Source: Prochlorococcus sp. AG-363-J23 (GTDB taxonomy: Bacteria > Cyanobacteriota > Cyanobacteriia > PCC-6307 > Cyanobiaceae). Taken from it: a stretch of DNA of 60,333 bases. Positions 46,035-48,377 of the stretch are shown piece after piece. How positions within the stretch are numbered: the first letter of the stretch is position 1; every line of letters starts with the position of its first letter. Location: NCBI GenBank assembly GCA_003280245.1, contig QCFN01000005.1:1-60333 (forward strand), given 5' to 3'. The notes under the pieces were generated by a model. That model ran no database searches, was not told the origin of the DNA, and was given only the letters and a program-made list of their open reading frames with translations. Both the position numbers and the translations under genes were made by a program.

Positions 46035-48377
46035 CTAACCTCTTGCTCCGCCAGAGAAAGTAACCAACTGGCCATCTCTAGTATTCCCACTAGATCCTGT
46101 TATTAAGAAATTTGGCTTTGCAAGCTCTTCATTCCGCTTTGGCTCAAAGGCAGGCATTGCACCCATATGGCCAGGGCGAGTTGGATTTCGTCTTCGAGCT
46201 GATGTACCTTCTGTACCTGTCACTGTTTCTCCTCGGTCCCAGTCATCTCCAGTAATATTTAAACCGGATGATTGACCTTCTCCAGTAATCCTTGAGACTG
46301 GTCTTGAAGTAGCTTCTTCAGTCATCTCTTCGTTCAATGCAACAGGCTTAAAATGCCTCTGTCTTGAATCAAATCGAAATTGCTCTGTACCTGTAACTTT
46401 ATTATCTGCCATATCAAATGGACCCGTTATTCTTGAACCTTGTTCATAGCTTATTCCAGTCACCGCTGAAGATTTTTCACGTTGAATCTGAGCTGATCTA
46501 GCAGGGGACTGAACAGTAAATTCAGTTCCAAAAGAATTATTTTGCGAAGTAACACTTTCAACTGTCGCTTGATTCCCACAAGCCTCAGCCAGATGGTCTC
46601 CTCCAACATAAGGAGTGCCTGTCAACACTTCGCAAGCTCCTTTGTCTGCACCAGTCATACTTCCACCCAATCCTGGTTGCTGGCCAGTCATACGAGGACC
46701 AGGAGTGCCCATTTTTTGAGGTGTTCGCTTAAGGACTTCTTCTATCGATGGCTTATCACACCATTGATTAGATTGTTCAACTCCTGCATATGGGGTCCCT
46801 GTTACTGCCTTACACGTACCAGGCTCATCTCCTGTTACCAAGCCTGAGCGTCCAGTGAGAGTTCCACTTACTGTTTGAGACTTGTTTGTAAGACTCAAAC
46901 CAACCTTGGCCGCCTCAGGTGAAGGACTTCCACCACAGAAAGATTGAAACTGCTGGGTACCAACGTATTCGTCACCTGTTACTCGTTTACAACTTCCAGG
47001 CTCATTTCCAGTTACTGACGATGCTCGAGACACATTTGTACCTGTAACAGAAGAACCTCGAAGAGTACTAAATGAGCCGACTTTTTCAGCAGGTCTACCA
47101 TCTGGTAGTGGATCAGACCCGAGATACTGATCTCCAGTCAATTCACGATTAGCACCAGCCTCATCGCCAGTAACATGGCCAGAGCGTCCTACCATCACCC
47201 CGCTAACCTTTCTTCCATCCAAAGTCAAGCTATGACCAACTTTGCGTGGTGATGGATTTACACCTCCACAAAATTCAGTCGATTGATTAGCAGAAATATA
47301 TTCAGTGCCTGTAAGAGACTTACAAGTTCCAGGTTCATCTCCGGTGACTTTTTCGGATCGTCCTACTTCATTTCCTGTGACCTTATTTCCATGAGTGGTA
47401 TTTGTGACTCCAACCTTTGATGGTTGGCTAGGAGATGGGGAAGACTGACAAAAAGTATCAAAAACTTCTGAACCTAAGTACTGAGTCCCTGTTATCGAAC
47501 GACATGTACTTGCCTCATTCCCAGTAGTTTTTATAGATCTATTAGCTTGAGTTCCTGTAACAACCTGGCCAGAGCTAGTTTCACTAACACCAACTTTCCA
47601 AAAAGCATCAACGTCAGTCTGCTTGGATCCATTCCTATTTGGTCCGCAAGGACGTGCAGTTGAACCCTTCTTATTGGTTGCACCACTTTTACTGCGAAGC
47701 TCTCGAACTCTTTGCGAAATTTCTCTACTTGTTAAATCAGGATCACCTTGACGAGCAACAGATGCTGCTGATGTTGGTTGTTTTCCAGCGGTCTTCCCAT
47801 GTTTAGACAATGCTTCTCTGCGAGCCAATACAAGAGCTCTGCTTGGATTTTGAATTGATCGACGTTTAGAAGTTGTCCTGCGAGAACTACTTTTGTTGTC
47901 TGATTTTCTAATGCTTTTAGAAGATAACGAAGATAAAGGAGAAGTTGAAGAGGAAGAGCTAACACCATCCCTTTCTTGGCATTCATCACAACAATACTTA
48001 GTTACTGAAGACGTTCCTGAAGTAGAAGGAGACATCTTTTTCTCAACGTCTACTCTTGTACGGTCTTTAGTTGTATCAGCCGACTTACCTCTTCGTGACA
48101 ATGCATCCCTACGAGCTAAAACAAGGTCTCTACTAGGTTGACTTACTCGCTTTACTTCCCGAGTAATAGGAGCAGAACTTGAAACAGAAGAGGAGAAGGA
48201 ATTTGAGGAAGTCTTTGAAGGCTGGACAAACGAAGCTTCAGTTCTAGTGGCACGTGCATCAGAAGCTGAACGAACCCTATTTGGGGAAGCACTGTCTAAA
48301 ACAGCAGCTTTCTTTCCACCTTGACTGAGAGCCTTCCGGCGCTCAAGGACTAACTCTCGACTTGATTGTTTTGCCAT
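46035..48377 (-). CDS. csoS2: Carboxysome assembly scaffold CsoS2
   Basis: An intrinsically disordered scaffold binding RuBisCO and shell. The 780-residue protein has four N-terminal helix repeats (R-E-L-V-L-x-R-R-x-A-L-S type near residues 6, 82, 179 and a degenerate one at 217), then six M-type repeats (from 261, 321, 379, 432, 491 and 555) with VTGxE and LTGTxY elements, and a C-terminal part with SAVTGISYEQGS, VTGTEQF and the final FSGGARG peptide that docks to the shell. The repeats show high similarity without being identical. Confidence 0.95.
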   Translation of the reverse strand: MAKQSSRELVLERRKALSQGGKKAAVLDSASPNRVRSASDARATRTEASFVQPSKTSSNSFSSSVSSSAPITREVKRVSQPSRDLVLARRDALSRRGKSADTTKDRTRVDVEKKMSPSTSGTSSVTKYCCDECQERDGVSSSSSTSPLSSLSSKSIRKSDNKSSSRRTTSKRRSIQNPSRALVLARREALSKHGKTAGKQPTSAASVARQGDPDLTSREISQRVRELRSKSGATNKKGSTARPCGPNRNGSKQTDVDAFWKVGVSETSSGQVVTGTQANRSIKTTGNEASTCRSITGTQYLGSEVFDTFCQSSPSPSQPSKVGVTNTTHGNKVTGNEVGRSEKVTGDEPGTCKSLTGTEYISANQSTEFCGGVNPSPRKVGHSLTLDGRKVSGVMVGRSGHVTGDEAGANRELTGDQYLGSDPLPDGRPAEKVGSFSTLRGSSVTGTNVSRASSVTGNEPGSCKRVTGDEYVGTQQFQSFCGGSPSPEAAKVGLSLTNKSQTVSGTLTGRSGLVTGDEPGTCKAVTGTPYAGVEQSNQWCDKPSIEEVLKRTPQKMGTPGPRMTGQQPGLGGSMTGADKGACEVLTGTPYVGGDHLAEACGNQATVESVTSQNNSFGTEFTVQSPARSAQIQREKSSAVTGISYEQGSRITGPFDMADNKVTGTEQFRFDSRQRHFKPVALNEEMTEEATSRPVSRITGEGQSSGLNITGDDWDRGETVTGTEGTSARRRNPTRPGHMGAMPAFEPKRNEELAKPNFLITGSSGNTRDGQLVTFSGGARG

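Follow-up and report, generated by a model that had tools for sequence, protein, structure and literature searches.

A conserved short M-repeat without a cysteine pair in the carboxysome scaffold protein CsoS2 of Prochlorococcus sp. AG-363-J23

Why does one of six M-repeats in the scaffold protein CsoS2 lack the two cysteines that the other five carry? Alpha-carboxysomes are carbon-fixing compartments of marine picocyanobacteria, and a gene for their scaffold protein lies on a 60,333-nucleotide stretch of Prochlorococcus sp. AG-363-J23 DNA, here called the window. A preliminary description of the window, made from the sequence alone, had read the third repeat as one that had lost both cysteines and had taken their joint absence to suggest that the two residues work as a pair and that this repeat has a different job. 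Here, we ask how widespread and how old the cysteine-free repeat is, whether the cysteines are coupled, and what a repeat without them might do.

The csoS2 gene and its six M-repeats

The open reading frames adjoining csoS2 resemble genes for both Rubisco subunits, large and small, and for BMC-type (shell) proteins. The Pfam family CsoS2_M (PF12288) matched residues 178-600 of the csoS2 product with 703.2 bits, and the NCBIfam model for cyanobacterial CsoS2 (NF050159) matched with 1259.5 bits, above its curated cut-off of 1100. The protein has both the M-region and a C-terminal end, in which GGARG is present, and its nearest solved chain, PDB 8wxb_Y, aligned across residues 2-780. The gene was single copy in the genome to which the window belongs (55 contigs totaling 1.31 Mb, 69% complete). 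Its features are as follows.

46035..48377, minus strand: csoS2, alpha-carboxysome scaffold protein CsoS2, 780 amino acids (family matches and open reading frame)
47382..47561, minus strand: M-repeat 1, residues 273-332, Cys292/Cys310
47208..47381, minus strand: M-repeat 2, residues 333-390, Cys352/Cys370
47049..47207, minus strand: M-repeat 3, short form, residues 391-443, no Cys
46872..47048, minus strand: M-repeat 4, residues 444-502, Cys463/Cys481
46692..46871, minus strand: M-repeat 5, residues 503-562, Cys522/Cys540
46578..46691, minus strand: M-repeat 6 up to its second Cys, residues 563-600, Cys582/Cys600

A script listing placed the cysteines of CsoS2 at residues 129, 130, 133, 244, 292, 310, 352, 370, 463, 481, 522, 540, 582 and 600, which confirmed the five pairs reported earlier in repeats 1, 2, 4, 5 and 6. 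The members of each pair are 18 positions apart as described, but 17 residues, not 18, lie between them. The third repeat had been placed at residues 379-431, which correspond exactly to 47085-47243 and do lack cysteine; as a range for the repeat they start about 12 residues early, because repeat 3 spans residues 391-443 when counted from its first [VI][TS]G triad.

Repeat 3 otherwise resembles its neighbors. It has the three triads eight residues apart (VSG, VTG and LTG) and the tyrosine of the long form of the M-repeat (Tyr418), and it keeps the KV motif, but it has neither cysteine of the long form's pair about 18 positions apart. By register, counted by hand on the sequence, the two cysteine positions are occupied by Asn410 and Arg428. 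Moreover, repeat 3 has a linker of 25 residues between its tyrosine and the following repeat, versus 32, 30, 31 and 32 residues in repeats 1, 2, 4 and 5, a feature absent from the preliminary description. Repeat 3 thus has each property of the short form of Cai et al. 2015 (PMC4499774), namely shorter length, lack of the cysteine pair and the third position.

A separate cysteine cluster, CCDEC, was observed in the N-region (residues 129-133, window 47979-47993). Such clusters were frequent: of the N-regions compared, 140 of 179 from cyanobacteria and 102 of 136 from proteobacteria had one, and 64 of those from proteobacteria carried the form CGCGC.

Occurrence and age of the cysteine-free third repeat

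Homologues were collected by a cyanobacterial family search, which gave matches in 363 of 400 genomes, 180 of which were read, and by proteobacterial searches, which gave matches in 78 of 210, 6 of 248 and 72 of 369 genomes, of which 50, 6 and 70 were read, respectively. Proteobacterial loci were drawn from records as well as genomes. Removal of 25 duplicates or contained copies from 345 loci left 320 distinct proteins, of which 180 came from cyanobacteria and 140 from proteobacteria. Repeats were found with a position-specific score that ignores the cysteine column, and candidates that scored below 18 or lacked an aromatic residue, His or Leu at the tyrosine position were discarded. A simple regular expression was replaced, as repeats whose gaps were 7 or 9 residues long escaped it. 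A faster version of the score failed to find repeats whose first triad was weak; counts come from the final, full parse, while repeat identities and tree row labels come from the faster one, and some tree rows labeled TTTTT or TTNTT are TTNTTT in the final parse.

Among the 1,900 repeats of the 320 homologues, 1,593 had both cysteines, 297 had neither and 10 had one. The pattern of the window, with pairs in every repeat but the third, is written TTNTTT, and the letters a and b denote the first or the second cysteine alone. TTNTTT was the pattern of 172 of the 177 cyanobacterial proteins that were complete, so its presence in the window is not due to chance; the others were TTNTNT (two proteins), TTNTT, aTNTTT and TNTTT (one each). 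The third repeat was cysteine free in 176 of the 177, the exception being a protein whose start is cut off and whose cysteine-free repeat is its second (L111). A C-terminal end was present in 134 of the proteobacterial proteins; 67 of these were TTNTTT, 14 were TTNTTTTT and 32, including the incomplete L158, had no cysteine-free repeat. The median inner linker was 31 residues in repeats with cysteines, and 25 (cyanobacteria) or 23 (proteobacteria) in repeats without them. In several small proteobacterial proteins (L216, L222, L236 and L242), repeats 2 and 3 were separated by a long stretch in which a short repeat, since lost, may once have stood.

The motifs of the cyanobacterial third repeat were conserved. 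In 176 six-repeat proteins the first and second triads, the tyrosine and KV were each kept in all 176, and the third triad was kept in 168. Mean identity for cyanobacterial repeats 1 to 6 was 0.89, 0.92, 0.77, 0.74, 0.85 and 0.78. The residue at the first cysteine position of repeat 3 was most often Gly (88) or Asn (51), followed by Ser (11), Asp (10), Gln (7) and His (4). In 62 six-repeat proteobacterial proteins, repeat 3 was the most variable (0.68 versus 0.72 to 0.80), which argues somewhat against strong constraint there. As the repeat retains its shell-binding motifs, it is a conserved short module and not a decayed one.

The cyanobacterial third repeat was on average nearest to proteobacterial position 3 (identity of 0.62 versus 0.59 for position 4), and individually so in 120 of 176 cases, with another position nearest in 56. 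A tree of the C-terminal region, built for 167 of the 320 proteins by a quick search and with many open forks, shows only where cysteine-free third repeats occur; it placed the cyanobacteria on one side of a branch with support of 95 and cysteine-free third repeats on both sides. The short form is therefore probably older than the split between cyanobacterial and proteobacterial proteins.

The title of the preliminary description implied that two functional cysteines were recently and jointly lost in this lineage. Nothing beyond the window sequence itself spoke for such an event, and the pattern was present in nearly all cyanobacterial and half of the proteobacterial homologues and had been in print since 2015. 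On the basis of the homologue tabulation we reject a recent loss, to which we assign next to no probability. We conclude that what was called a loss is instead an old short form that is shared with proteobacteria.

Coupling of the two cysteines

The preliminary description proposed that cysteine pairs be tabulated across CsoS2 sequences. Independence at the observed frequencies would give about 500 single-cysteine repeats in 1,900 (arithmetic), compared with the 10 observed, a comparison that is too generous because most cysteine-free repeats are one inherited third repeat. Seven of the 10 were seventh repeats of a single proteobacterial group (L211, L212, L213, L163, L219, L161 and L224), the cysteine of which lies in a different, often cysteine-rich loop, and one (L158) was unreadable. 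Just two were readable and in register: in L254 the second cysteine of repeat 1 was replaced by Tyr, where L278 and L070 retain Cys, and in L154 the first cysteine of repeat 3 was replaced by Tyr. Cai et al. 2015 list single-cysteine repeats in two proteobacteria, Bradyrhizobium BTAi1 and Thermithiobacillus, neither of which was knowingly included in our 320 proteins. Repeat 7 was itself atypical in L163, L219, L161, L224 and others, having no pair and often being followed by a cysteine-rich loop such as CGCACGG.

Repeat 3 alone amounts to one event and is weak evidence for pairing, as its second cysteine position lies within the shortened loop. The fifth repeat of the cyanobacterial proteins L062 and L246 (from genomes G003 and G060, of one genus) shows joint replacement: Asn and Gly, encoded by AAT and GGA, stand where the two cysteines stood, and the loop is not shortened. 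One further case of a cysteine-free repeat 5 was that of L219 and L221, within a proteobacterial clade with a short loop, and relatives of these (L211, L220, L161, L224, L217 and L163) carried a short-loop repeat 5 with a cysteine pair at a spacing of 14. Thus, a short loop alone does not forbid the pair. The double replacement in repeat 5 and the pairs at a spacing of 14 give better support for pairing than repeat 3 does. Counted as independent events, a single clean double replacement is set against two single losses, both in register and each found in one genome. We conclude that joint loss is strongly supported by the count of repeats and thinly supported by independent events; the proposal that the cysteines act as a pair is supported by the rarity of single losses, but independent double losses were also few and the repeat that prompted the proposal contributes little.

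Published work bears on what such a pair might do. Turnsek et al. 2024 (PMC11365436) list the cysteine pairs among four conserved features in 1,662 repeats from 272 sequences, report that the M-repeat region has low confidence in AlphaFold, and describe each M-repeat as appearing to bridge neighboring hexamers. According to the same authors, both cysteines of any one repeat sit next to each other in the shell structure of Prochlorococcus MED4 and may form a disulfide. Gel mobility of CsoS2 shifted with redox state, and the shell was immobile in oxidized condensates and recovered in reduced ones; mutant carboxysomes could not be purified from Escherichia coli.

An alternative is that the pairs act mainly between CsoS2 molecules, through disulfides or metal binding, and that repeat 3 was spared to limit cross-linking. 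Intermolecular disulfides were proposed by Cai et al. 2015, and cysteines also cluster in the N-region. Against this, the cysteines are adjacent within each repeat, and upon oxidation a single homogeneous CsoS2 band gives way to a smaller one, which fits bonds within a chain (Turnsek et al. 2024). Moreover, a fixed spacing, which was 18 in 1,546 of the 1,593 pairs, fits a bond within the repeat. We consider a mainly intermolecular role very unlikely.

A short repeat among putatively lockable repeats

In H. neapolitanus, mutants in which cysteine was changed to serine grew normally in air (Turnsek et al. 2024), indicating that a disulfide is dispensable in the laboratory and arguing against a strong role for one. 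Such growth is consistent with repeat 3 being a neutral relic, in which an old loop deletion removed the second cysteine, the first drifted, and the repeat was inherited without function because the remaining repeats suffice. The varied residue at the first cysteine position in the 176 cyanobacterial proteins also points that way, and some proteobacteria are without the cysteine-free repeat, several having a long degenerate stretch in its place. In opposition, the short form sits at a fixed position in all but one of the complete cyanobacterial proteins, the tyrosine and KV are invariant in the cyanobacterial third repeat, and a repeat in a proteobacterial clade retained its pair despite similar shortening. 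We regard a neutral relic as somewhat unlikely.

We favor, with a probability of roughly 60%, the reading that repeat 3 is a conserved short form of the M-repeat that binds the shell and has no cysteine pair, while the other five repeats can be locked by a putative disulfide. Our data contribute to this reading the sequence pattern and how well it is conserved, together with the kept motifs and the coupled behavior of the cysteines; shell binding by M-repeats, proximity of the cysteines and the redox effects are taken from the papers. From its kept motifs, repeat 3 is predicted to attach to the shell's inner face, as the other repeats do, through its three triads and tyrosine. The other five probably fold as triangular units where three hexamers meet, and the two cysteines of each long repeat may form a disulfide there that stiffens the mature shell. 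Because the loop that follows its tyrosine is shorter and the pair is missing, repeat 3 would have a fold that cannot be locked by an intrarepeat disulfide, and it may act within the array as a spacer or joint that stays unlocked. Of the preliminary interpretation, the pairing of the cysteines is supported and the different job of repeat 3 is hypothetical; the shell-binding motifs are retained. The short form would have arisen before cyanobacterial and proteobacterial alpha-carboxysomes parted.

A more specific version is that selection has kept repeat 3 as a redox-blind joint midway along the array, remaining flexible between repeats lockable by oxidation, for example, where the chain passes from facet to facet. 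We think this version unlikely. If it were true, a repeat would have been unlocked naturally for a second time in one cyanobacterial genus, by the double replacement in repeat 5. The natural double replacements in repeat 5 offer a ready comparison for the disulfide idea. According to Li et al. 2024 (PMC11481516), CsoS2 determines the size and shape of alpha-carboxysomes; they attribute shell size to the number of M-repeats and leave differences between repeats out of account.

The cysteine-free third repeat was already known. Cai et al. 2015 described the third repeat in all their cyanobacterial CsoS2 proteins as a short form, about 10 residues shorter and without the pair, and their Table 1 gives TTNTTT for MED4, MIT9313, H. 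neapolitanus and T. nitratireducens; between their short-form motif and repeat 3 of the window we found no difference. What is new here is small, namely the tabulation, the natural double replacement in repeat 5 and the pairs at a spacing of 14, the latter two of which were not found in the literature searched, a scope outside of which most subscription journals lie. The CsoS2B protein of Halothiobacillus neapolitanus (PDB 8b12 and 9ly8) likewise has a short, cysteine-free third repeat but differs in having seven M-repeats as counted by Turnsek et al. The CsoS2 protein of Prochlorococcus marinus MED4 (PDB 8wxb chain Y), which aligned over the full length, is like that of the window in having pairs in repeats 1, 2, 4, 5 and 6 but not in repeat 3, and differs in that its N-region is without the cysteine cluster found as CCDEC in the window.
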